Assembly (NCBI RefSeq): GCF_900215605.1 | Contig: NZ_OBEL01000001.1 | Coordinates: forward strand, 620,001-684,000 | Direction of reading: 5' to 3' | DNA length: 64,000 nucleotides | From: Cohaesibacter gelatinilyticus | GTDB lineage: Bacteria; Pseudomonadota; Alphaproteobacteria; Rhizobiales; Cohaesibacteraceae | In this document: positions 2,941-17,571 of the stretch, one piece after another | Position numbering within the stretch: position 1 is the first letter of the stretch | Layout: every line of letters begins with the position of its first letter | Program-made: the position numbers and the translations under genes | Notes under the pieces: model-generated | Told to the model about the DNA's origin: nothing | The model's input: the letters and a program-made list of their open reading frames with translations, nothing else | Database searches by the model: none

Positions 2941-4020
2941 ATGGCAAAAATTACTCTTTCGAACCTGCGTCACTCCTATTATCCCAATCCATCAAAGCCG
3001 GATGATTACGCGCTTAAGCATCTCGATCTGTCTTGGGAAGATGGTGGTGCTTATGCGCTGTTGGGCCCTTCGGGCTGTGGCAAGTCTACCCTTCTTAACA
3101 TTATTTCCGGCCTGCTCGTGCCATCTGAGGGGAAAATTCTCTTTGATGATAAGGATGTTACGCATCTAAAGCCGGCCGAACGCAATATCGCTCAGGTTTT
3201 CCAGTTCCCGGTCATCTATGACACCATGACTGTGTTCGACAATCTGGCTTTCCCGCTTCGCAACCGTCAGGTCGATGAAGCAACCGTGAAATCCCGCGTC
3301 GAAGCCATTGCCGATATGCTGGAAGTCACCGACATGTTGGGCACAAAGGCAGCTGGCCTGTCTCCTGACAACAAACAGAAAATCTCCATGGGCCGCGGTC
3401 TGGTGCGCGATGATATCAATGTTGTGATGTTTGACGAACCTCTGACCGTGATCGACCCACATCTGAAGTGGAAGTTGCGCTCCAAGCTCAAGGAGCTTCA
3501 TCAGGAGCTTAAAGCCACCATGATCTATGTGACCCACGACCAGACAGAGGCATTGACCTTTGCCGATCAGGTAGTGGTGATGCAGGAAGGCGAGGTGGTG
3601 CAGATTGGCACTCCAGTCGAACTGTTCGAGCGCCCAACCCACACCTTCGTTGGCCACTTCATCGGATCCCCGGGCATGAATATTCTTCCATGTGAAGTGT
3701 CTGGCGGCAAAGCCATGTTCAATGGCCAATCAATCACCTTGGAAGGCGAAATTGAAGCAGGCGAGGGCAAGAGCAACGAAATTGGTATTCGCCCTGAACA
3801 TGTAACAATTGCCGACAACGGCTTGGAAGCGGTGGTGAGCAAAGTCTCCGATGTCGGTCGCCATAATGTGGTGGAAGCAATGGTCGGTGGAACCAAGGTT
3901 GCATCCATCACGGAAGAAAGTGCGCCCAATCTAGGCGAGAGCATCCATTTGCAATTCGATCCTGCCAAAACACGCCTCTATCGCGATGGCTGGATTGCAA
4001 CCAAAAGTGCGGGAGCTTGA
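2941..4020 (+). CDS. glpT: Glycerol ABC transporter ATP-binding protein GlpT
   Basis: Second nucleotide-binding subunit. Walker A GPSGCGKST is at residues 42-50, the Q-loop Gln at 88, Walker B Asp165-Glu166, and the canonical switch 'YVTHDQTEAL' with His199. The signature motif is degenerate: LSPDN at 140-144 instead of LSGGQ. This complements GlpS, which has the good signature but lacks the switch histidine, so only one composite ATP site should be canonical. The C-terminal 120 residues are a TOBE/OB-type regulatory domain. The gene sits 14 bases after glpS with its own ribosome site (AGGAAGG about 9 bases before the ATG). The two bases between its stop and the next ATG show tight translational coupling with glpP. 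Note that the name glpT in E. coli means an unrelated glycerol-3-phosphate antiporter. Confidence 0.87.
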   Translation: MAKITLSNLRHSYYPNPSKPDDYALKHLDLSWEDGGAYALLGPSGCGKSTLLNIISGLLVPSEGKILFDDKDVTHLKPAERNIAQVFQFPVIYDTMTVFDNLAFPLRNRQVDEATVKSRVEAIADMLEVTDMLGTKAAGLSPDNKQKISMGRGLVRDDINVVMFDEPLTVIDPHLKWKLRSKLKELHQELKATMIYVTHDQTEALTFADQVVVMQEGEVVQIGTPVELFERPTHTFVGHFIGSPGMNILPCEVSGGKAMFNGQSITLEGEIEAGEGKSNEIGIRPEHVTIADNGLEAVVSKVSDVGRHNVVEAMVGGTKVASITEESAPNLGESIHLQFDPAKTRLYRDGWIATKSAGA

Positions 4021-6122: not shown

Positions 6123-6530
6123 ATGCGCAAAAAAAAGAAAAGCGAATTTCTTACCGAAGTCGAGTTGGAATTCATGACCCGACTATGGGAGCTGGGTGAG
6201 GGGACTGTGCGTGATGTCATGGCTAAATTGGCGCCGGAGCGCGATCTGGCCTACACGTCCGCAGCAACGATCATGAGGATTCTGGAGCAGAAGAGTTTTG
6301 TCAGCAGCAGAAAAGAGGGCAAGACGCATGTCTATAATGCCCTGCTGACAAAGGATGCGTACCAGACACGGTTCTTGAAGGATGTCTCAGCAAAGCTGTT
6401 TGACAATACGCCTGCAGCGCTGGTGGCTCGATTGGTCGACGATGAAGACCTGTCCGAGGAAGCGCTGAACGAGATCCGTACTCTGTTGGAGAGGAGGGTG
6501 AAAAATGCCAACGATAGGAACAATATTTGA
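6123..6530 (+). CDS. BlaI/MecI-family transcriptional repressor
   Basis: A 135-residue winged-helix repressor. The N-terminal part has the family pattern: 'LTEVELEFMTRLWELGEGTV', then the recognition helix region 'YTSAATIMRILEQKSFV', then the wing 'KEGKTHVYNAL'. The C-terminal third is the dimerisation helix bundle. Members bind operators as dimers and are removed by a membrane metalloprotease partner; that partner is encoded next and overlaps this gene by 26 bases. No beta-lactamase or penicillin-binding protein lies nearby, so the regulated target is unknown. The start follows a lysine-rich opening (MRKKKK). The ribosome site is weak. Confidence 0.85.
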   Translation: MRKKKKSEFLTEVELEFMTRLWELGEGTVRDVMAKLAPERDLAYTSAATIMRILEQKSFVSSRKEGKTHVYNALLTKDAYQTRFLKDVSAKLFDNTPAALVARLVDDEDLSEEALNEIRTLLERRVKNANDRNNI

Positions 6531-7629
6531 TGTTTATCTGAACATTAATATTCTGTTGCTTGTCACAATAGGGGTTTGGGCGATTACGCGCCTGGCTATG
6601 CAAGGGATGGGGATGTCCTTTGCCTATGGCTTGAAACTCCGATTGATCAAATCACTGGTTCTCACCTGCTTCATCGCCCCTGTCTTGGTCGTGCTCTATG
6701 ATGTCTATGTGAGGCAAAATGGTGTTGCGACGAGCTATTCTCTATCTATTTCCGATCTGATTGTCTCTCAATATCTGCAAGGCAGTTTTGATATGAAGGC
6801 CGCTGATCTGGAGGTGTTTCTTGCTCTGCGTACACGATTGACCGAGGATGTTTTGGCCGCCGATAGCATGTTCGCCTTGGCTCTTTTGACTGCGCTGGCA
6901 ACCGGTCTCACAGTTGGAGCCATTCGTCTTGCTGTCAGCATGGTGAAACTCGCCAATATTTTGTCGAAATGCTTCGAATGGCGTCAGTTCGGCTCTCTTC
7001 ATCTGCTGCTGTCTGACAGCGTTACAACACCATTCTCTACGCGCGGTTTGATCAAGCGCTATGTCATCCTGCCCACCAGCATGTTGGAAAATGGCAAGGA
7101 TCTGCAAATTGCTCTTGGTCATGAGCTTCAGCATATTCGTCAAAGAGACACCGAATGGGAAATTGCGCTGGAATTCATGCGTCCATTCTTTTTCTGGAAC
7201 CCGGCTTTTCTGGTCCTCAAGCGCCAGATCGAGCGCTTGCGCGAGCTAAGCTGTGACCAGCAAGTGATTGTACGCCGGAATATCAGCGTGCAGGACTATT
7301 GCGAATGCCTGCTGCGGACCTGCGAAACTGGCCTGAAAAAACGTGAACTCTTCCTAGGTGCCATGCCAAGGGTCGCATTCGTTCAACTGGATAAATCACC
7401 GATTGGCAGCAACTCAGCAAAGTTCCTGCACCATCGTTTGGTCTCTCTCCTGGAGGGTGAGAAGCATCAGCGCCATGCCTTAACGTTGTTGGCTTTCATG
7501 GTGCCAGTTCTGAGCCTGGTGGGGCTTGCATCCATCCTGATGCAAAAACCCAATGACTGGAGTCATGAACGCATCATGTTCTCAACGGTCCTCAATCTGG
7601 ACCGTTTGGCCGAAAGAAGTCAGCGATAA
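6505..7629 (+). CDS. BlaR1-like M56 membrane metallopeptidase
   Basis: An integral-membrane zinc protease, the presumed signal-transducing partner of the BlaI-like repressor. Hydrophobic segments occur near residues 12-30, 48-68 and 120-145, and a last one near 328-348. The zinc motif HELQH is at 206-210 with the downstream acidic ligand in 'RELSCDQ' (Glu247), as in M56 peptidases. The protein stops after the final membrane span, so it lacks the extracellular penicillin-sensor domain of true BlaR1/MecR1. The ligand is therefore unlikely to be a covalently bound beta-lactam. It starts inside the repressor gene with a good ribosome site (GGAGAGGAGGGTG), consistent with a co-translated pair. Confidence 0.82.
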   Translation: MPTIGTIFDVYLNINILLLVTIGVWAITRLAMQGMGMSFAYGLKLRLIKSLVLTCFIAPVLVVLYDVYVRQNGVATSYSLSISDLIVSQYLQGSFDMKAADLEVFLALRTRLTEDVLAADSMFALALLTALATGLTVGAIRLAVSMVKLANILSKCFEWRQFGSLHLLLSDSVTTPFSTRGLIKRYVILPTSMLENGKDLQIALGHELQHIRQRDTEWEIALEFMRPFFFWNPAFLVLKRQIERLRELSCDQQVIVRRNISVQDYCECLLRTCETGLKKRELFLGAMPRVAFVQLDKSPIGSNSAKFLHHRLVSLLEGEKHQRHALTLLAFMVPVLSLVGLASILMQKPNDWSHERIMFSTVLNLDRLAERSQR

Positions 7630-8729: not shown

Positions 8730-9404
8730 TTACTTTTTCGTCTCACCAAACCAGCGTTTGAACCAGCCTTTCAGGCCCTTCTCAACATTTTGCGCTTTTT
8801 CCTGCGCAGCCGAGTGGGTTTCCTCGGCATAGCGGCTTACATTGTCTGCGGTCTCTTCAATGCTCTCCAAAACAGGGTCTACCTGACGTTCCTTGATGGT
8901 CGCCATAAGGCGATAGACGCCATAGAAGATGGCACCTAGGAGCAAGAAGAAGATTGTATTGAACCACGGGAAGAGGAACTCATTCGGACCCGACACCTGT
9001 TTGATGCTAACGGCATTTGGGAAAATTGTGAAAAGCTTGATGCGCCAGCCATAATGCCTTACCGCAACCCAGACATCGTCTTGTTTGGCAAGTGATTGGG
9101 CTTGTGCGGTCACTGTCCCGCTGTCGAACTTGAAGTAAGGCGGCCAGCTCCAGTCGGTATCCTCATTGCGATAGACAAAGGGTTTTCCATCCGGGAAGGT
9201 AACATTGATGAAGCGAACATCGCGAGTGGATTCTTTATTGGTGCCAGCATCTGGTGATGCCCAAAAAATAGAATTTCCGATATCCATCCGTTTGACGTCT
9301 GTTCCAACGATCTGAACGATATCGCGAGAGGGCAGGGTATAGTGAAGAAACAATCCCAGCATCACCGCAATCAGGATGCCCACCACCCATTTAAAAATGA
9401 CCAT
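8730..9404 (-). CDS. DUF1523 membrane protein, last gene of five-gene operon
   Basis: An inner-membrane protein with an N-terminal span ('FKWVVGILIAVMLGLFLHY'), an extracytoplasmic domain of about 120 residues resembling DUF1523 ('IVQIVGTDVKRMD', 'WPPYFKFDSG'), a second span ('WFNTIFFLLLGAIFYGVYRL') and a charged cytoplasmic C-terminal helix ending in a basic-aromatic tail. The start at 9404 has an AGGA site and lies 8 bases after the preceding stop. A start 36 bases further upstream would overlap that gene. As the only membrane protein of the operon, it may anchor the AAA+/coiled-coil proteins. That role is inference; DUF1523 has no known function. Confidence 0.72.
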   Translation of the reverse strand: MVIFKWVVGILIAVMLGLFLHYTLPSRDIVQIVGTDVKRMDIGNSIFWASPDAGTNKESTRDVRFINVTFPDGKPFVYRNEDTDWSWPPYFKFDSGTVTAQAQSLAKQDDVWVAVRHYGWRIKLFTIFPNAVSIKQVSGPNEFLFPWFNTIFFLLLGAIFYGVYRLMATIKERQVDPVLESIEETADNVSRYAEETHSAAQEKAQNVEKGLKGWFKRWFGETKK

Positions 9405-9412
9405 GATTTTTC

Positions 9413-10759
9413 CTATTGCTCCATCGATGCTGGTCCCCACGGACCTTGCCAGATTGCTGGTTCTATCTCAGGCTCATTTTCTTCCATAGCGGGCTCAGGA
9501 CCAAAGAGCTGCATGCGTGCTCCGCTCTTGTCCAAAATATATTCCTCTTCAAGGAACCGAGCCACATAGCTCTTCTTGGCATCACTCCATGAGCGATAGG
9601 CAGAATAGAATGCATCCTTGTGGCAAATGAACAATTGGCGGAAATCCAAAGGTGTCAGCTGCGATAACAGCATATTGACCAATCGCTTGTTGGCATGGTT
9701 TTTGGACCGCAACAGATAAAAATAAGCAGGATCATGTGGCTTCAGATCAAAATGCTGCTGCCCGGCAATGATACTTTTCATCAGTTTCTCAAGGGAATGA
9801 TATGCTTCTGGCAGATCCTGACGATGCTTGCGCCGCAGATCTCGCAAATCACGACGCGAGACGTTGGATAGATCTTCGTCATTGCTTGCAGCAGCATCAA
9901 TGACCAGAAAATCCATCTTCTGTTGCAAGACGGCCAGACTGTTGGTCATTAATGTTGTGTTGGTGATCTGCTCCACCAGGTCATTGATTTTTAGAAATGC
10001 AGCAATCTCGTAATGATTGTCGAGGGAGCAATTATATTCAAGCGACAAGTCGGTCAGATCATGAGCGCCATTGACGTTGATGATGCCGGGTTCCTGTACA
10101 TCACGGAATAAATAGATACCGCCGAAATGGCTGGTATAGAAACTCTTCTGCTCAAAAGTCTGTCTGGCCAGATGGATCGGATCACGAAGGATATTGCCGG
10201 TGCGTTTGGAGAGTTCGATCATCTCTGCGATCAGAACATCATCCCACCAGCCATCCTTGTGCTTCATGAATTGCTCGATCTTCTCGGACAACTCCTCGCT
10301 GGCTTCCACGTCCGAACCAATTGTGTCTGCTTCGACTTCAATGGTGCGAATGGTGAAGAGATCGGACGGGCTGTCGACGGAATAGACTGAATTGATCAAT
10401 TCCCCGACCACCGCGTCCCGTGCAGTCAGAACAAACAATTGCTCTTCATTCTGTTCGATATAGCTGCGCAGAATATCCTGCGACATGGAAAGGCGGACAT
10501 TCAATAGCGGGCATTTTTTCTGGTCAATGGATAGCAGGATGAATTTGCGATTGAAACCATCGGGGTTGAGATAGAATTCGTCATTGAACTCATCCCCGAT
10601 CTCGGGTGAGTAGCCCGAGATATCAATATGAAATTCTTCCAACTCGGTACGTTTGCCAGTCAGATGTTCCAGCGCACGATTATAGCGCGCCACCAGAGCA
10701 GGTGCTCTGACCTCAAAGAGGTTGCCAAACATCAGACCGCGTGTGACCAGTCGCATCAT
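9413..10759 (-). CDS. Unrecognised 448-residue protein, operon gene 4
   Basis: I do not recognise this family. It is soluble, with no signal peptide or membrane span. The N-terminal half is mixed alpha/beta. Around residues 290-340 a charged helical stretch ('RRDLRDLRRKHRQDLPEAYH') appears. The C-terminus is a Glu/Pro-rich tail ending 'WQGPWGPASMEQ', of a kind often used for docking. Its start overlaps the stop of the AAA+ gene by 4 bases (ATGA), so the two are translationally coupled. The stable order with the ATPase suggests an adaptor or substrate partner. No catalytic motif was found. Confidence 0.7.
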   Translation of the reverse strand: MMRLVTRGLMFGNLFEVRAPALVARYNRALEHLTGKRTELEEFHIDISGYSPEIGDEFNDEFYLNPDGFNRKFILLSIDQKKCPLLNVRLSMSQDILRSYIEQNEEQLFVLTARDAVVGELINSVYSVDSPSDLFTIRTIEVEADTIGSDVEASEELSEKIEQFMKHKDGWWDDVLIAEMIELSKRTGNILRDPIHLARQTFEQKSFYTSHFGGIYLFRDVQEPGIINVNGAHDLTDLSLEYNCSLDNHYEIAAFLKINDLVEQITNTTLMTNSLAVLQQKMDFLVIDAAASNDEDLSNVSRRDLRDLRRKHRQDLPEAYHSLEKLMKSIIAGQQHFDLKPHDPAYFYLLRSKNHANKRLVNMLLSQLTPLDFRQLFICHKDAFYSAYRSWSDAKKSYVARFLEEEYILDKSGARMQLFGPEPAMEENEPEIEPAIWQGPWGPASMEQ

Positions 10760-12705
10760 GGGGTGTTCGTCTCCACATAACGGCGTTTTGCTTCTGCCAT
10801 GCGCTGCATATCGCGTACGGCGTCTTCAATGGCCACTTCATCGGATTTGTCAGCATAACGGAATTCACTATCCGCGTAGCGGTTGATTTCCTGCAAGGCC
10901 ATGTCGACAGTAATGGGCTGAGCCAGTTCCGCAATCATGTTTTTCTTGGTGTCATAATCTTTGGAGAGGAACAAATCCGGCTGTTCCATCCATTCATCTG
11001 GCAGCTCAAAGTCCATGGCGCGAACCTTGATGGCGTCGGTGATGTTCTTGATGGCACGACCTGTAAAGCGCTCATCAGCCTGCTGGATGGCTTTCAGATA
11101 ATGGCCAAGCTTGGCGATGTTGGTTAGTTCCCCGATATCGGACTGAACCCGATCAAAGACATTGAGCAACTGCGCTTCTTGCGGCTTGGAATGCTGATCA
11201 TAGGAAGCGGCAACCGCTTTCTTGATTTCCTGTGCGGAATAAAGCTCGTGATCACCGAGAGGGATATTGTGGTTCTTGCCCATCAGAAGATGGAGAATAT
11301 CGATATAATCCTCACGGGTTTGCGGGCCATCCACCAGAAAACGTGCACCGGCACGCTGACGTAGGGCATCATCGACATTTTCCGGATAGTTGGAAAACAT
11401 GCCAAAGGTGCAATTGCCACGTACCAAGGTATTGGCACCAGCAAAGCTTTCCATCAAAACGGCGGTCACTTCCAGTTGACCAGCAGAGGATTGTCGATCT
11501 CCGCGCTTGCCAGCCAACTGGTCAATATCATCGACTGTGCCAAAGCCGATGATATTGGGATCAATGATGTTGCGAATGAAGGCCTTGGCATTTTGTGCCG
11601 ACTTGCCCTGATAGCTATCGATACTGTCAGTCGATAGGTTCTGATAGCGAAAAGCGTAACCGGCATTGTCGCAATAATCACTGATCAGTCCGGCCATCAT
11701 CTGAATGAGCGTGGTTTTACCAGTGCCTGGCTTTCCATCCCCCATGAACGTGAAAATGAAACCACCAAGCTCGGCAAACGGATTAAGCTTGCGATCAAAA
11801 TCATAGGCCATCAGCATCTTGGACAATTTCATGGCCTGATATTTGGCAATATGGTTGCCGACCACCTCGTTAGGTTTCTTGAAGGACATGACCAGCGTTG
11901 AGGACCGCTTGCTAGACGAGGGGACGAAGCCATTAATCTCGAATTCGTCTTCTTCTACTCGATAGCTGAAATTGGTGAAAGGAGCTACATGGGTATTGGC
12001 TTCTGCCCGCCGTGCAACTTTCTCCATCAGCTTTTCGCAGAAGCTTTTCAACACGGCAATCAATTGCTCATCAGATTTGGCAAATTGTGCCAGCTTCTGA
12101 TCCAACTCCCAAAGGGTGCCATGCAGAGCCAGTTGCGGATTATCGAGAACAATCTCTTCCACTTCACCGATATCGGTTTCCGTCTCATTGTCCATGGAAG
12201 CGATATTGGAGATCAAAAAGTCGCTCATATTGGCAAAAACATGCAACGAGATCAGAGAGGCGGCTCCGAGCAAATCTTCAAAGCGCCTCTTTTGACTGGC
12301 AGCGAGGGCCCCGGCCAAGTTTTCCCGCATCAAATCGGATAAACCGGTCTGATCTGCAAATTGGTCGGAGACGGCTTGCGCGACGGAAAGAGCACGCCGC
12401 ATGGATTTCATGACGGTAGCCTGAACCGGACTGGTCAGCGGATCATCTTCATCACATTGGGTGATGCGAGTGCTAAGCTGGACACCTTCCGGCCTTGCGG
12501 TTGGGCGGGTGACAAAACCAGGTGTGGTGGAACGGAAACGACGTCTTGTTCCAATACCAGCAGAACGCTCGATCTTGGCAGGCTGCTCTACAGGTTTGGC
12601 AACGCGTGGAGTATGGTCAAAGCCGGCCAGCATGGTCTCTGACGCGGTATATTTCTCGCGAACCAGCTCTTCTTTCAGTTCCATCAAATCATTAGAAAAA
12701 GTCAA
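10756..12705 (-). CDS. AAA+ ATPase, operon gene 3
   Basis: A 649-residue protein with an AAA+ core in its middle. The first 300 residues have no recognised fold: residues 1-95 are basic and probably disordered, followed by helical segments. Walker A GKPGTGKTT is at about 324-332. Walker B is 'IGFGTVDDID' at about 386-395, with Asp-Asp rather than Asp-Glu. Sensor-1 Asn is in 'GMFSNYPENVDDALRQRAG' near 439, followed by arginine-finger candidates Arg451/Arg455. The C-terminal lid and a 150-residue tail follow. This motif order fits an oligomeric remodelling ATPase. No protease, helicase or DNA-binding domain is visible. It lies 8 bases after the 376-residue gene and overlaps the next by 4. Confidence 0.83.
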   Translation of the reverse strand: MTFSNDLMELKEELVREKYTASETMLAGFDHTPRVAKPVEQPAKIERSAGIGTRRRFRSTTPGFVTRPTARPEGVQLSTRITQCDEDDPLTSPVQATVMKSMRRALSVAQAVSDQFADQTGLSDLMRENLAGALAASQKRRFEDLLGAASLISLHVFANMSDFLISNIASMDNETETDIGEVEEIVLDNPQLALHGTLWELDQKLAQFAKSDEQLIAVLKSFCEKLMEKVARRAEANTHVAPFTNFSYRVEEDEFEINGFVPSSSKRSSTLVMSFKKPNEVVGNHIAKYQAMKLSKMLMAYDFDRKLNPFAELGGFIFTFMGDGKPGTGKTTLIQMMAGLISDYCDNAGYAFRYQNLSTDSIDSYQGKSAQNAKAFIRNIIDPNIIGFGTVDDIDQLAGKRGDRQSSAGQLEVTAVLMESFAGANTLVRGNCTFGMFSNYPENVDDALRQRAGARFLVDGPQTREDYIDILHLLMGKNHNIPLGDHELYSAQEIKKAVAASYDQHSKPQEAQLLNVFDRVQSDIGELTNIAKLGHYLKAIQQADERFTGRAIKNITDAIKVRAMDFELPDEWMEQPDLFLSKDYDTKKNMIAELAQPITVDMALQEINRYADSEFRYADKSDEVAIEDAVRDMQRMAEAKRRYVETNTP

Positions 12706-12713
12706 AATAATAC

Positions 12714-13844
12714 CTATCGATAGCTTAAAACACGGCCATGAGGGCTGACGACATATTTGCGAATGTTGGTAAAGCCAGGCGGGTTCATCTCTTCCAAAAT
12801 CTGGTAAGCGCGCTGTGGCAAAATAAGGGATCGCTGATGCGCAGTTGCACCACTCAGGCCTCCATGTGGTAGCTTCATCAACGGATCAAGTTGATAGATC
12901 TGCCGTTCGACCTGTTTGAAAAATCCTGTTCTCTGCATTTCGGTGCGCGAGGCAATGAGTGTTTCGACACTCCATGCCAAGGCCCAATCCCACTCAGGTT
13001 TGCGGCTGGCCTCTGACAATACATCCCGTAAAGGCCCGCTTTGCTGAGTGAAACTATGGCTGTACATCGGTCCGACAAAGATCCGGCGCAGCTTCTTGGG
13101 ATGCAGGTCATCAAAATCCTGATCAAATCCTCGCGCAATGGTCACCAACTCAAGAAGAGCAGAAGATTGTGCCATCAAATGGGTTTGAACCTGTGGCCAG
13201 CGCTCGCCATCACGGGGTAGGGCACGATAGCCGCTATCCTCAACATCCATCAGATAGATGACCGGGATATTGAGCTGGCTGTCATAGACTGCCCAGTGAA
13301 TGTGATATTTGCGGCGTCCTGACGAAAGATCTCCATCCCAACTGCATTGCGGGTCATTTTGAGCCCAAAAGAGGTTCTGATCAACAAGGCATTGGTAATA
13401 GAGGCGCTGCGAGGCTGCGAACTGCAATTGCAGAGGAATCTCATGCTCATTGAGGATATGTTGCACCATTTCCTGTTTGAGCTGCTTGAGGCTGGGCAGA
13501 GATTGCAGATGGCGGTTTGCCTGAATGGCGTCATTGGCCATTTGCAGCAATTCAGGAAAGATTGGAAAGCCGCTCTCCTGCCGGTCAATATTGAGAACAT
13601 TTGCCATCAAGTTCGAGACACGGCCAGCAAGCAAATGCTTGTAGGAAAGCGCCGTGAATGTCGCCGACAGGCTGCTCAAATAATCCTGCAGGATAGGAAC
13701 TTCGGTATCCAGCACAATTTTGTTTGACGTGGTATTCTCGGCCACCTTTGTCAGGTGGCCGATGATTTGGTCAAACTTGGCAAAATAGCGCCGGGTCTCA
13801 TAGGCATCCTCAAGGGGTAAGTGATCTTTGGTCAGATCTACCAT
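12714..13844 (-). CDS. Unrecognised 376-residue protein, operon gene 2
   Basis: No family recognised. The first 150 residues look all-helical ('LPSLKQLKQEMVQHILNEHE'). A central mixed region carries the well-ordered block 'YHIHWAVYDSQLNIPVIYLM' and an acidic patch. The C-terminal part is basic and ends 'VSPHGRVLSYR'. No signal peptide, membrane span or nucleotide-binding motif is visible. It lies 7 bases after the coiled-coil gene and 8 bases before the AAA+ gene, so co-expression is near certain. It is a probable partner of the ATPase; its activity is unknown. Confidence 0.7.
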   Translation of the reverse strand: MVDLTKDHLPLEDAYETRRYFAKFDQIIGHLTKVAENTTSNKIVLDTEVPILQDYLSSLSATFTALSYKHLLAGRVSNLMANVLNIDRQESGFPIFPELLQMANDAIQANRHLQSLPSLKQLKQEMVQHILNEHEIPLQLQFAASQRLYYQCLVDQNLFWAQNDPQCSWDGDLSSGRRKYHIHWAVYDSQLNIPVIYLMDVEDSGYRALPRDGERWPQVQTHLMAQSSALLELVTIARGFDQDFDDLHPKKLRRIFVGPMYSHSFTQQSGPLRDVLSEASRKPEWDWALAWSVETLIASRTEMQRTGFFKQVERQIYQLDPLMKLPHGGLSGATAHQRSLILPQRAYQILEEMNPPGFTNIRKYVVSPHGRVLSYR

Positions 13845-13851
13845 TCAGACC

Positions 13852-14928
13852 TCAGGCTCCGTAAGCGTTCTTGTCGTGCTTTTCGACGATCTTCTCGAAG
13901 CGGCGGGCAAATCTCTCATCAGACTTGGCCTTCTCTTCCAGAACCTTGCGTGCAAACACCATATGGTCTTCGTGCTTTTCCATCATTTCGGCCATACGCT
14001 GATTGGTCGCCGATCCAATGGCTGCCATCGCTGCCTGCGCTTCCTGATCGGTTGCAACTCCAATCTCATTGATACGGTGAGCTACATCTTGTTGCTGTGC
14101 AGTCTTCAGAGATTTGCTCAAGGCATCATAGAGAACAACGCGTTGTTTGGTGTCTGTCTGAAGCTTGTTGATGAGAACCATCTGGGTAGCGGCCTGGTTT
14201 TGCAGACTATCGACCCAGGTTTTACCCTTCTCAATATAGCGCTCCAGAGTCTGGCTTTCGGCTACTTTGACCTGCTCCTCCTGTACGAGCGCGTTATATT
14301 CGGTATTAAGAGCAGCCAACTCTGTTTCCAGCTTGGTGCGGGCTGCGGCATCGGTCTCGACGGAAATCTTGTTTTCCAAAGCGATGATCTTAGGATCGAT
14401 ATCAAGAATTTTCGCCTTGATGTCTTCCAATGTAGCAACAGTTGCTTCGCGATCAACGAGTGTGCTCTCCAGGTTCTTCTCGACCCGCTCGGCATGTTCG
14501 TTCAGCGTATTTAACTGATCTTGCAGCAGATTGGTAATGACATCTGATTTGGAAATCAGGTCCTGAAGCTTGTCTTCAATGGATGCAGTGCGCATACGTT
14601 CCTGACGTAAGCTATCGGCACGCTGTTTGGAGAAGAAGCCGATGAAGCTCTCCCAGCCGGAATAGGAGCGCATGGCGTCGAAATCTTTGGAGAAACCCGC
14701 CGTTACATCATCAAGACCCATGATCAGCTCAGCAATATTGGCGCTCATCAAATCGGTGTGGGCATTCACATCATCAAGGCTTGCATTTTCGATGTCGATA
14801 GAGAGCTCTTGTCCGGCTTCAAACTCGCTTCGCGCCTGTTCAATTTGATCGGTGAATTTGGAAAGCTTTTGTTGGGAAGTCGCAACTTCTTCTACTGCTT
14901 TTTTGATCTGGCTTTCTAGGGCAGACAT
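13852..14928 (-). CDS. Coiled-coil protein, first gene of five-gene operon
   Basis: A 358-residue protein that is helical almost throughout, with heptad-like coiled coil over residues 1-60 and about 110-240 ('LLQDQLNTLNEHAERVEKNL'). The central block 'GWESFIGFFSKQRADSLRQE' followed by long helices recalls the TelA/KlaA tellurite-resistance family, but I cannot confirm this by eye. It is acidic overall with a basic C-terminal helix. The start has a strong AAGGGG site 6 bases upstream. It leads the operon and faces the baeS gene across a 430-base divergent region. A coiled-coil scaffold or AAA+ substrate are both possible. Confidence 0.75.
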   Translation of the reverse strand: MSALESQIKKAVEEVATSQQKLSKFTDQIEQARSEFEAGQELSIDIENASLDDVNAHTDLMSANIAELIMGLDDVTAGFSKDFDAMRSYSGWESFIGFFSKQRADSLRQERMRTASIEDKLQDLISKSDVITNLLQDQLNTLNEHAERVEKNLESTLVDREATVATLEDIKAKILDIDPKIIALENKISVETDAAARTKLETELAALNTEYNALVQEEQVKVAESQTLERYIEKGKTWVDSLQNQAATQMVLINKLQTDTKQRVVLYDALSKSLKTAQQQDVAHRINEIGVATDQEAQAAMAAIGSATNQRMAEMMEKHEDHMVFARKVLEEKAKSDERFARRFEKIVEKHDKNAYGA

Positions 14929-15358
14929 TATTTCCCCTTTTTGAAAAGTGTATATTTAAATAGTAGGTACTAGGTGGCGGAAATCAACCACACGAATGTG
15001 ATCAAACGTTGAAGCAACTCCTGATAATCACAGAAAATCAAGCATATAAGATCTAGAAAAGTCACTTATGGGCAAAAAGTCAACGCATTCTAAGTAGTTT
15101 CAATTAGCAAGGGTGGATGTGCTTGATCTGACAGTTTTGTTGAAGCTATGGATGAGCGGGTGGATCTGCAGAGTTGATTCTGCGAAAGCCAAAACAAGCA
15201 GCTGAAGAGTGGAAAAAATTGATTTGATCCGATCTTCACGTCTGATCCTGATTGAGGATTGGAAAGTTCTGCGATCTTTTCCTCTTTTGGAGGTCGGTCA
15301 GCCGGTCTGATGAAAACTTCATTGCCTCTCCACATTTGTTATGCAGACTGGGGGAATG
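14929..15358 (+). promoter_or_regulatory. Divergent promoter region between coiled-coil operon and baeS
   Basis: A 430-base region with no convincing gene. Near the operon side it is AT-rich (14951-14961) and contains the 12-base palindrome TAGTA-GG-TACTA at 14961-14972, about 33 bases from the operon start codon, where a repressor would block transcription. The rest shows no clear BaeR-type box. Promoters for both directions must lie here, but I cannot place their -35/-10 elements with confidence. Confidence 0.45.
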
Positions 15359-16870
15359 ATGAAGATAAGACAGTCTCTGGCAGGTAAGCTGTTTCTGGCG
15401 ATGGCTGCCCTTTCCTCTGTGATCGTGGCATTGATGGCGGGTTTCATAGCTATCAATATTCGCTCTGGATTCTCGGACTATCTGCTTGAGATTGAGCTGG
15501 AACAATTTGACGATCTTGCTGGTGCATTAGCACTGCAATATGCCGGCTCGGGGGATAGTTGGAAGAGCTTTGCCTCCGATCCCCGACGATGGCATGATAC
15601 GGTCAGATCGAATGTGAGCCGCCTTGGTCCACCTCGGGACGAAAGAGCAGGGCCTAGGCCACCGCGAGATGAGAGAGCAGGGTTTAGACCTCCTCCACCA
15701 GCGGGAATGCGTCCTCCCAGGCCAGAAGGAGGCGCTCGGCGACCATTTCCCCGTCATCCTGATCCGCGCCAGTTGGGAACAAGACTGGCGCTTTTGGATA
15801 TCGATATAGATCGCGTTGCCGGAGCGAAGATCGCCTCTCGCAATTTTGTGACACAAGCCATTTTCGACGCGAGCGGGCGTGGGCAGATCATCGGCTATTT
15901 GGCCTTGGCCCAATCACGTGCTGCTGCAGATGGGCGGGATCAGTCCTTTGTCTTTGATCAGCTCAAAGCTCTTGGGTTAGCTGCGCTGCTGGCACTGGCC
16001 ATCGCCGCTTTAAGTGCCTGGGTGCTGGCCCGCTATTTCCTTCATCCAATTCAGGAACTGATGCAGGGCACCATGCGTTTGGCCGCGGGGGAAAGTGGTG
16101 TTCGCACGCAAGCGCAACGCAGTGATGAAATCGGTACGCTCATTACGCGCTTTAATGAGATGGCAGAAAGTCTTGAGGTTGCAAAACAGACTGAGCGCCA
16201 ATGGGTATCGGACGCATCGCACGAATTGAAAACACCATTGGCTGTCCTGCGTGGCAAAATTGAAGGCTTGCAGGATGGCATCTATAAACCTGACGAAGCA
16301 TTCCTCAGTGATCTCCACACGTCCGTCATGCGCCTGACCACGTTGGTGAGTGATCTGAATATCCTTGCACAAAGCGGCGAGGCGAAGCTTTCATGCATAT
16401 GGGCACCGGATGATCTGAGCGAAATCATCCGGGAGAGTTTGGAGAGGCAAGCTGATCGCTTGAACAAAGCTGGCCTTGAGTTTGATCTGAACCTGATCGA
16501 AGACGCGCCCATTGAATGTGATCGTGGGCGATTGCTGCAGCTTCTCGATAATCTGATCGAAAATTCGCGCCGTTATACGTCCTCGCCCGGCAAAATTGCC
16601 ATCACCCTCGGTGAGTTAAATGATGGCTACCAAATCATAATTGCAGATACCGCGCCGTGCCCAACAGAACTGCAATTGCCAAAATTGTTTGAACGCTTCT
16701 ATCGTACTGAGAGCTCTCGTAATCGCCAGCACGGTGGGTCAGGATTGGGGCTCGCTATTTGCAAAGCCATTGTTGACGCACATTCCGGTGATATTTCGGC
16801 AACGGCATCAAACCTTGGCGGATTGCAAGTGGGTATCAGCTTGCCAAAGCAACAGGAGGCTCAATCATGA
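15359..16870 (+). CDS. baeS: BaeS-like sensor histidine kinase
   Basis: A membrane sensor kinase. A first span lies near residues 10-35, then a periplasmic loop, a second span near 203-229, a HAMP linker, the HisKA box 'SDASHELKTPLAVL' with phospho-accepting His288, and a HATPase domain with N-box 'DNLIENSRRY' and 'GGSGLGLAICKAIVDAHSG'. The D-box reads 'DTAPCPTELQLPKLFERFYR', which closely follows the E. coli BaeS pattern. The periplasmic loop contains an unusual Pro/Arg-rich segment (about residues 90-138) with the repeat PRDERAG twice. The ATG at 15359 follows GGGGG closely. In-frame ATGs at 15341 and 15356 are alternatives. It overlaps baeR by 4 bases. Confidence 0.83.
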   Translation: MKIRQSLAGKLFLAMAALSSVIVALMAGFIAINIRSGFSDYLLEIELEQFDDLAGALALQYAGSGDSWKSFASDPRRWHDTVRSNVSRLGPPRDERAGPRPPRDERAGFRPPPPAGMRPPRPEGGARRPFPRHPDPRQLGTRLALLDIDIDRVAGAKIASRNFVTQAIFDASGRGQIIGYLALAQSRAAADGRDQSFVFDQLKALGLAALLALAIAALSAWVLARYFLHPIQELMQGTMRLAAGESGVRTQAQRSDEIGTLITRFNEMAESLEVAKQTERQWVSDASHELKTPLAVLRGKIEGLQDGIYKPDEAFLSDLHTSVMRLTTLVSDLNILAQSGEAKLSCIWAPDDLSEIIRESLERQADRLNKAGLEFDLNLIEDAPIECDRGRLLQLLDNLIENSRRYTSSPGKIAITLGELNDGYQIIIADTAPCPTELQLPKLFERFYRTESSRNRQHGGSGLGLAICKAIVDAHSGDISATASNLGGLQVGISLPKQQEAQS

Positions 16871-17571
16871 ACTCCAACGAAGAGCCGTTCATTGTTGTCG
16901 TTGAAGACGAACCTGCATTGGCTGAGATCGTAAAAGACTATCTGGTTCAGTCAGGTATGAATGTTGACCTTGTGGAGGAGGGCAGAGGTGCAACGGAGCA
17001 CATTCTGCAATCTGATCCCGATCTGGTGATTTTGGATATCATGCTGCCGGGAAAAGATGGTCTGACCATCTGCCGTGAAGTGCGGGCTCAAAGTGATGTG
17101 CCCATCATATTGCAAACAGCAAAAGTCGAGGAAATTGATCGACTGCTAGGTTTGGAACTCGGAGCGGATGACTATATCTGCAAGCCTTTCTCTCCTCGCG
17201 AAATGGTTGCGCGTGTGAAAGCAATTTTGCGTCGCACCAAAAGGACAGTCGGCAATACTGCCCCAACGGATGCAGCTTCAGAAACATTGCTTACCATCGA
17301 TGAAGAGCGTTGGACGGCGGACTATAATGGCCAACCGCTGAACCTCACGCGGCGGGAATTCCAGCTATTCAGCACGCTCTATAACCGGCCGGGCCGGGTT
17401 TTCTCCCGTGCTCAATTGCTGGAGCTTGCCTTTCCTGATGACAGCGAGGTGTTTGATCGGGTCATCGATAGTCATGTGAAAAATATTCGCCAGAAGGTGC
17501 GCAAGATTGATTCCGAGTGCGATATTATTCGTTCCGTCTATGGGGTCGGCTACAGTTTCGAGATGCTCTGA
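16867..17571 (+). CDS. baeR: BaeR-like response regulator
   Basis: An OmpR-family response regulator of 234 residues. The receiver domain has acidic residues Glu13/Asp14, phospho-acceptor Asp57 in 'LVILDIMLPGKDG', and Lys106 in 'DDYICKPFSPREMV'. The C-terminal winged helix follows ('LTRREFQLFSTLYNRPGRVF', 'VIDSHVKNIRQKV'). The stretch 'EEIDRLLGLELGADDYICKP' is nearly the same as in E. coli BaeR, which controls envelope-stress and drug-efflux genes. No efflux genes adjoin here. The next gene encodes a secreted YHYH protein, a possible target. It overlaps baeS by 4 bases (ATGA). Confidence 0.85.
   Translation: MNSNEEPFIVVVEDEPALAEIVKDYLVQSGMNVDLVEEGRGATEHILQSDPDLVILDIMLPGKDGLTICREVRAQSDVPIILQTAKVEEIDRLLGLELGADDYICKPFSPREMVARVKAILRRTKRTVGNTAPTDAASETLLTIDEERWTADYNGQPLNLTRREFQLFSTLYNRPGRVFSRAQLLELAFPDDSEVFDRVIDSHVKNIRQKVRKIDSECDIIRSVYGVGYSFEML

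Follow-up and report, generated by a model that had tools for sequence, protein, structure and literature searches.

The nearest published idea that we found for the locus reported here is that of gene neighborhoods in which PspA or Snf7 is paired with Vps4-like or other AAA+ ATPases, for which remodeling has been predicted (PMC11237479; comparisons with this study refer to the sections of it drawn on here). Further points of comparison are the TelA/KlaB and Ter system (PMC7824862, likewise for the sections drawn on) and the ATPases Afg2/SPATA5, Cdc48/p97, Fidgetin-like 1 and Vps4. The locus in question is a run of five open reading frames (ORFs), here called genes A to E, on the minus strand (14928 to 8730) of a 64,000-nucleotide stretch of Cohaesibacter gelatinilyticus DNA (contig NZ_OBEL01000001.1, positions 620,001 to 684,000), referred to below as the window. 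Like the phage-shock-protein (PSP) and ESCRT-type pairs, this cassette brings together a helical, coiled-coil protein (A), a classical AAA ATPase (C) and membrane genes, but A lacks a clear PspA match, and that account describes nothing equivalent to B or D. With TelA/KlaB, A shares its length, a long soluble helical form and a weak profile match; the homology is not significant, however, and the kla/YceG/TerD neighbors that were compared do not match B to E. C resembles the named ATPases in its Walker A motif, its second region of homology and its nearest solved relatives, and differs from them in a Walker B Asp, in the single AAA domain matched and in a first stretch of 300 residues that matches no Pfam domain up to E 1.

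The families of D (DUF6638), of E (DUF1523) and of the gene that takes the place of E in Rhizobiaceae (DUF2333) have Pfam descriptions that give no function. Our literature search found no paper naming DUF6638. The portions of the DUF1523 literature covered contained no account of the cassette, and those on DUF2333 mention it as a neighbor gene of the type VI secretion system, again with no account of the cassette. The original prediction, made from the DNA alone, that no known cassette would match thus stands, as far as scans with Pfam, NCBIfam, PADLOC and PHROGs and the literature search reach. We file the cassette as a form of AAA-driven remodeling machine not described before, rather than as categorically new, because its function is something that we only infer. 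In our reading, to which we assign a probability of about 0.5, the cassette would be a single accessory cytoplasmic machine in which C remodels structures of A lying beneath the membrane, B and D serve as adaptors and the membrane partner can be exchanged.

Conservation and linkage of the cassette

Genome contigs were scanned with C, which gave at least 577 relatives, the best 80 of which were kept. The 128 loci fetched were found through C or D and include duplicates of one genome as well as short stretches cut around D. All five genes were present in 87 of them, ABCD in 16, CDE in 15, ABC in four, BCDE in three and C alone in one, with none of the genes in two; the 15 CDE loci and three of the four ABC loci are short, at about 3–5 kb. 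Wherever at least two cassette genes occurred, their order and strand were unbroken, and the farthest cassette, in genome G1144, still reads A-B-C-D. In locus L018, next to a stretch of N, the whole of A and the initial third of B are missing. When A was searched alone in 190 genomes of the class, it gave three strong matches (the host genome, G041 and G173), all of which also hold D. The original prediction of one functional unit would have been contradicted by genes often found apart; the block was kept in the loci seeded with C or D, and the strong matches of A on its own were all in genomes with D (B was not searched alone). Taken together, these sequence comparisons strongly support the view that the run of genes is one functional unit and not a product of chance.

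The preservation of order extends over considerable divergence. Identity between G1144 and the window amounts to 19% for A, 16% for B, 25% for C and 23% for D, at which distance the proteins were still recognized by hidden Markov models (HMMs) with E-values of 1.3e-13, 1.7e-9, 2e-66 and 2.3e-48, respectively. A homolog of C is present in four Vibrio records, and the Vibrio vulnificus record that was opened holds A-B-C-D with DUF6638 annotated, the four proteins scoring 300.5, 265.8, 661.5 and 270.0 bits. The conservation of a four-gene core in very distantly related bacteria is therefore well supported by these profile matches. Since the A-B-C-D order is kept in the farthest cassette while the fifth position varies, the invariant core is A to D; of the five-gene operon originally proposed, this part stands, whereas DUF1523 is only one of several genes found in the fifth position. 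Distances in the trees of the four core proteins correlate with r of 0.95–0.98 over 73 loci, a value obtained with no unlinked control gene and hence not separated from shared descent, which agrees with joint inheritance of the four. Mean column identity, over row sets that differ between the proteins, was 80% for A, 79% for C, 65% for B, 51% for D and 50% for E, making A and C the most conserved pair.

The ATPase C

The AAA domain of C (Pfam: PF00004) spans residues 324–457 with an E-value of 3.4e-12, over the cut-off, and the first 300 residues had no Pfam match up to E 1, as expected for the AAA+ ATPase with a novel N-terminal region that had been proposed. Motif conservation was counted in 62 redundancy-filtered aligned rows (Table 1). 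The Walker A motif follows the pattern GxxxxGK[ST], with Thr or Ser at position 331. The Walker B motif reads Asp-Asp-x-Asp instead of Asp-Glu-x-Asp in 62/62 rows and so departs from the classical Asp-Glu; we therefore class C as an AAA-domain protein whose Walker B is a variant. Replacement of the Walker B Glu by Asp is expected to slow hydrolysis. In the second region of homology, N439 presumably occupies the sensor-1 position, and R449, R451 and R455 what we take to be the arginine-finger region.

By sequence, the nearest solved relatives of C include Fidgetin-like 1, an i-AAA protease and Vps4, and for the G1144 protein Afg2 and p97 come first among solved structures (E 2.9e-14). NCBIfam and PHROGs gave AAA-type matches for C and otherwise weak ones for the window's cassette proteins. 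In the AlphaFold2 model, residues 80–250 or so form a helical stretch of mostly good confidence; a Foldseek search with this model, whose AAA part is badly predicted, returned nothing at E 0.001 or better, and VIA returned AAA proteins with Z up to 6.8. A conserved basic segment ahead of the helical N-domain may serve as a lipid or nucleic-acid contact.

The coiled-coil protein A and its possible resemblance to TelA

Profile comparison of A with TelA gave a score of 28.7 for 29 close A rows and of 25.8 for 38 more varied ones, 30.3 with Vibrio added and 35.3 with G1144 added; against a broader TelA set it reached 37.9 (P 4e-4, probability 35%). Reversed controls scored 19.1 to 20.7 and 20 column shuffles at most 20.6. 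With TelA as query over 53 clusters, A came top at 30.0, the next cluster scoring 21.7; in the comparison run from A, none of the 52 other clusters scored above 27.7, and at a lenient setting (-mact 0.01) the alignment ran over nearly the full length. These results raise the possibility that the cassette is a system of TelA/Ter type against toxic anions or envelope stress, with A as a highly diverged TelA relative and C, B and D as its dedicated remodeling module. The similarity is nevertheless not significant, and the rise of the score was not continuous. Of 60 TelA alignments shuffled in blocks, one reached 37.3 against the real 37.9; scores fell to 27.9 (P 0.011) and 21.4 (P 0.081) with TelA as query against the same A sets, and the default alignment covered only 127 columns. 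The null set is itself imperfect, as some of the 53 clusters look like antisense artefacts and few are helical proteins. Run over the host genome with E up to 10, the TelA HMM (PF05816) did not find A, no TelA appeared when 21 A members were scanned with Pfam, and B, C, D and E compared with the kla/YceG/TerD neighbors of TelA gave no P below 0.02. The host genome moreover holds a separate, true TelA. The resemblance of the two profiles is suggestive, and a TelA/Ter-type system appears to us a tentative and rather doubtful explanation of the cassette.

The true TelA gene of the host lies elsewhere (contig C2, locus L126, 7001–8092; PF05816, 229 bits) and has an ORF of 252 residues upstream of it and a long one downstream, an arrangement that resembles a kla-type operon.

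Against PspA, represented by a profile of three sequences, A scored 22.8 and 19.1 where reversed controls scored 17.0 and 16.4; without a clear profile signal, A was not assigned to PspA, and no PspA was found in the host genome. A proteobacterial counterpart of ESCRT-III/Vps4 that operates without PspA was also considered, in which a ring of the p97/Vps4 clade, slowed by its Walker B Asp, would disassemble coiled-coil, TelA-like assemblies of A beneath the membrane by way of B and D as dedicated adaptors, with interchangeable membrane anchors. An N-terminal MIT domain of the Vps4 type was absent from the Pfam matches up to E 1 or 0.1, although HMMER may miss a diverged one. We regard such a counterpart as unlikely.

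The putative partner proteins B and D

Neither A nor B has a Pfam match above the cut-off, and D belongs to DUF6638 (Pfam: PF20343; E 2.4e-172, 574.2 bits against a cut-off of 27), so that of the two soluble proteins initially taken as unrecognized, B remains so and D is not wholly so. No membrane helix is predicted in A (by hydropathy) or D. Searches of D against the PDB gave no useful remote match, the best one, to the thermosome apical domain (E 0.0071), being treated as chance. Comparison of A, B, C, D and E with one another by hhalign detected no homology among them. The Pfam hits of A, B, D and E include no HORMA domain, which is the partner domain in TRIP13/Pch2 operons.

The AlphaFold2 model of B, built from 66 sequences, is of high quality (predicted local distance difference test score, pLDDT, 90.8; predicted template modeling score, pTM, 0.89) and consists of a helical half and a beta half. 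Neither the PDB (Foldseek) nor the viral structure library yielded a relative of it at E 0.001 or better. VIA-align, which covers only the families on the VIA list, found weak similarity of residues about 174–339 to several tunneling-fold enzymes: urate oxidase (Z 4.9 over 119 residues, root-mean-square deviation 3.9), 6-pyruvoyl tetrahydrobiopterin synthase (4.3), dihydroneopterin aldolase (4.2) and GTP cyclohydrolase (3.8). These matches, together with D188, D203, D241 and R254, which are kept in 66/66 rows of B, would suit a chaperone, in the manner of CbbX or MoxR-type AAA helpers, that assembles a single membrane or cofactor complex, with B binding a small ligand; an aldehyde dehydrogenase encoded divergently from A in 23/80 loci could be the client. 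Z-values under 5 can, however, reflect a common arrangement, and the unrelated chains of fructose-1,6-bisphosphatase and PhoU (4.4 each) score equally high. B of G1144 keeps S91, Y197, R254, T266 and Q348 among the polar invariants but has lost D188, D203 and D241, and the window has no aldehyde dehydrogenase beside A. An assembly chaperone of this kind seems improbable on balance.

The variable fifth position

E is a DUF1523 protein (Pfam: PF07509; E 1.8e-63, 213.5 bits against a cut-off of 23) with two helices predicted from hydropathy at residues about 2–20 and 143–161, in line with the membrane protein that had been foreseen. DUF1523 is present in 105/128 loci. In all ten Rhizobiaceae-type loci (eight from family f175, one from Sinorhizobium meliloti and one from Shinella), a DUF2333 gene (PF10095) lies near D and DUF1523 was not found; we take f175 to be Rhizobiaceae, as Sinorhizobium and Shinella carry the same arrangement. 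The fifth position of G1144 is held by other ORFs, two of them with predicted membrane helices. A small membrane gene of about 88 residues, here called F, lies between D and E in 43/80 loci and is absent from the window. Transmembrane helices are predicted by hydropathy in E, in F and in the one DUF2333 protein examined. From these comparisons, E is a putative lineage-specific membrane partner outside the invariant core, the fifth position changing with lineage.

Small ORFs also occur inside the cassette. In three Rhizobiaceae-type loci, the gap between C and D holds a small, similar-looking ORF (L174 10031–11776; L134 9193–9594; L138 10413–10853), which in S. meliloti Ak57 is annotated as endonuclease domain-containing and where D is also preceded by an ISRm16 insertion. 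In two loci, small ORFs for which two membrane helices are predicted lie between A and B (L141 5039–5344; L142 13438–13638).

Distribution

The best relative of the window's cassette is that of Cohaesibacter celericrescens H1304, at 80% identity for C. The cassette is present in 2/18 genomes of the host genus. DUF6638, counted over its cut-off and with the host included, was found in 3/20 genomes of the family and in 7/385 of the class; the corresponding numbers were 26/398 for the phylum, 1/43 and 10/61 for two orders, and 2/369 for the class of G443. To this last class, which is not Alphaproteobacteria and is probably Gammaproteobacteria, belongs G1144. Such a patchy distribution (26/398 phylum genomes) indicates that the system is accessory. 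The host genome (5.2 Mb) contains a single copy, whose GC content and third-codon-position GC content (GC3) resemble those of the window's other long ORFs, and a genomic island was discarded on account of this ordinary composition.

Patchiness within genus and class is also what would be seen if the cassette were an anti-phage defense, an AAA module that senses phage and acts together with its partner proteins. PADLOC reported matches of C to TRIP13 (2.5e-6 for the window protein) and IetA (6.8e-7 for Vibrio, 1.9e-6 for G1144), but these are confined to the common AAA domain; it reported none for B and D, at best 0.0046 (G1144) and 0.0072 (window) for A, and 0.04 for E. No nuclease, protease or other effector domain lies above the Pfam cut-off in A, B, D or E. 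Judged by eye, there was no integrase- or phage-like cluster among the recurrent neighbors printed. No phage record matches the window's ATPase at 1e-5; the Vibrio ATPase matches 15 phage records at 0.01, in the AAA domain only, and the G1144 ATPase gave five pattern matches in viral contigs and no relative. With this evidence, a defense function looks quite improbable.

Proposed function

The model that we prefer, of an AAA-driven cytoplasmic machine with a replaceable membrane partner, can be outlined as follows. C would be a classical AAA motor (p97/Afg2/Vps4-like), presumably assembled as a hexameric ring, that would remodel a partner at the expense of ATP, most likely A. This long coiled-coil protein, better conserved than B, D and E, may form or cap structures at the inner side of the membrane. 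B and D might act as dedicated adaptors or regulators, coupling the ring to A or loading it. The replaceable membrane protein, DUF1523 here and DUF2333 in Rhizobiaceae, would tie the complex to the inner membrane or report its state. With its invariant Walker B Asp, C is predicted to hydrolyze ATP slowly or in a gated manner, as a switch or disassembly factor and not as a fast unfoldase. A role for the machine in stress or at the envelope may be envisaged. The suggestion of a membrane-anchored remodeling machine, contained in the original prediction, is plausible, given a classical AAA ATPase, a coiled coil and a recurrent membrane neighbor encoded together.

Several observations weigh against this model. 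One long locus on a metagenome-assembled contig (L077) has C without A, B, D and E, and another long locus (L073) comprises A-B-C without D and E. Median gaps over all loci are 84 bases for A-B, 30 for B-C, 238 for C-D and 277 for D-E; with gaps often this wide, the genes need not form one transcript everywhere. The V. vulnificus cassette has no adjacent match to DUF1523 or DUF2333, so that gene context does not point to a membrane site in every lineage. Confidence in the AlphaFold2 model of C is poor, overall and in the AAA domain (mean pLDDT 62), and a recognition motif linking A and C was not found. Finally, remodeling does not explain the recurrent aldehyde dehydrogenase neighbor. No gene outside the cassette is constant, and this enzyme (PF00171) is the most frequent neighbor, in 36/80 loci; the divergent copies mentioned above lie less than 3 kb from A (e.g., L044, L045 and L050), mostly in Ruegeria and other Rhodobacterales, and one adjoins A in a locus from another class (L136).

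Features and flanking genes of the locus

The coordinates and spacing of the five ORFs in the ORF listing of the window are those first described: 7 bases between A and B, 8 between B and C, a 4-base overlap of C and D, and 8 bases between D and E. The longest ORF of E begins at a GTG at 9440 and would overlap D. The features are collected in Table 1.

Table 1. Features of the cassette and its surroundings; positions refer to the window unless a locus is named
Feature	Position	Strand	Description
Gene A	14928-13852	-	358 aa coiled-coil protein (ORF, alignments, hydropathy, Pfam)
Gene B	13844-12714	-	376 aa soluble protein; N-terminal helical half and C-terminal beta half (AlphaFold2)
Gene C	12705-10756	-	649 aa classical-clade AAA ATPase; TTG start; helical N-terminal region
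Gene D	10759-9413	-	448 aa DUF6638 (PF20343) protein
Gene E	9404-8730	-	224 aa from internal ATG; DUF1523 (PF07509); two predicted membrane helices
C, basic segment, residues 52-66	12508-12552	-	Conserved, before helical N-domain; low model confidence
C, Walker A (GDGxPGTGKT), residues 322-331	11713-11742	-	P326, G327, T328, G329 and K330 in 62/62 rows; T331 in 61/62
C, Walker B, residues 386-395	11521-11550	-	D392, D393 and D395 in 62/62 rows
C, second region of homology, residues 430-461	11323-11418	-	N439, R449, R451 and R455 each in 62/62 rows
Intergenic region between A and divergent two-component system	14929-15340	.	Likely site of cassette promoter
Gene F, examples	L124 5257-5523; L162 5344-5613; L141 10315-10584		Two predicted membrane helices

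In the intergenic region upstream of A, a promoter-like match lies at 14954–14927; the segment 8400–15400 holds nine of them, where shuffled sequence gave a mean of 7.3 (standard deviation 2.8). Adjoining A and divergent from it, a sensor kinase and an OmpR-type response regulator (named by eye) occupy 15341–17571. The layout is repeated in another genome of the genus, G001 (L125 479–2834, with A at 3090), where the kinase is 45% identical; the flanking kinase is present in 4/18 genus genomes. This two-component system may regulate the cassette in Cohaesibacter.

A gene for a BlaR1-type M56 peptidase (PF05569) lies near the cassette in the window (6505–7629), with none among the recurrent neighbor clusters printed. 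Flagellar-type genes, named by eye, were seen in 19/80 loci. The V. vulnificus cassette is followed by an mfd-like gene (L173 13124–16585), on a large replicon recorded as a plasmid, and a gene with a jacalin-like lectin domain (PF01419, E 1.5e-19) lies downstream of the G1144 cassette (L175 6553–7101).

Significance

That the order of the block is kept while its proteins drop to 16–25% identity speaks for strong selection as a unit. The cassette ties three protein families without known function to a recognizable motor, and the motor gives a handle on them. The invariant Walker B Asp provides a sharp biochemical prediction. Should A be a relative of TelA, the cassette would connect the TelA proteins, which are poorly understood, with an ATP-driven remodeler, and if the ESCRT-III/Vps4 counterpart reading were true, the cassette would represent a further, separate and ancient kind of bacterial membrane-remodeling system.

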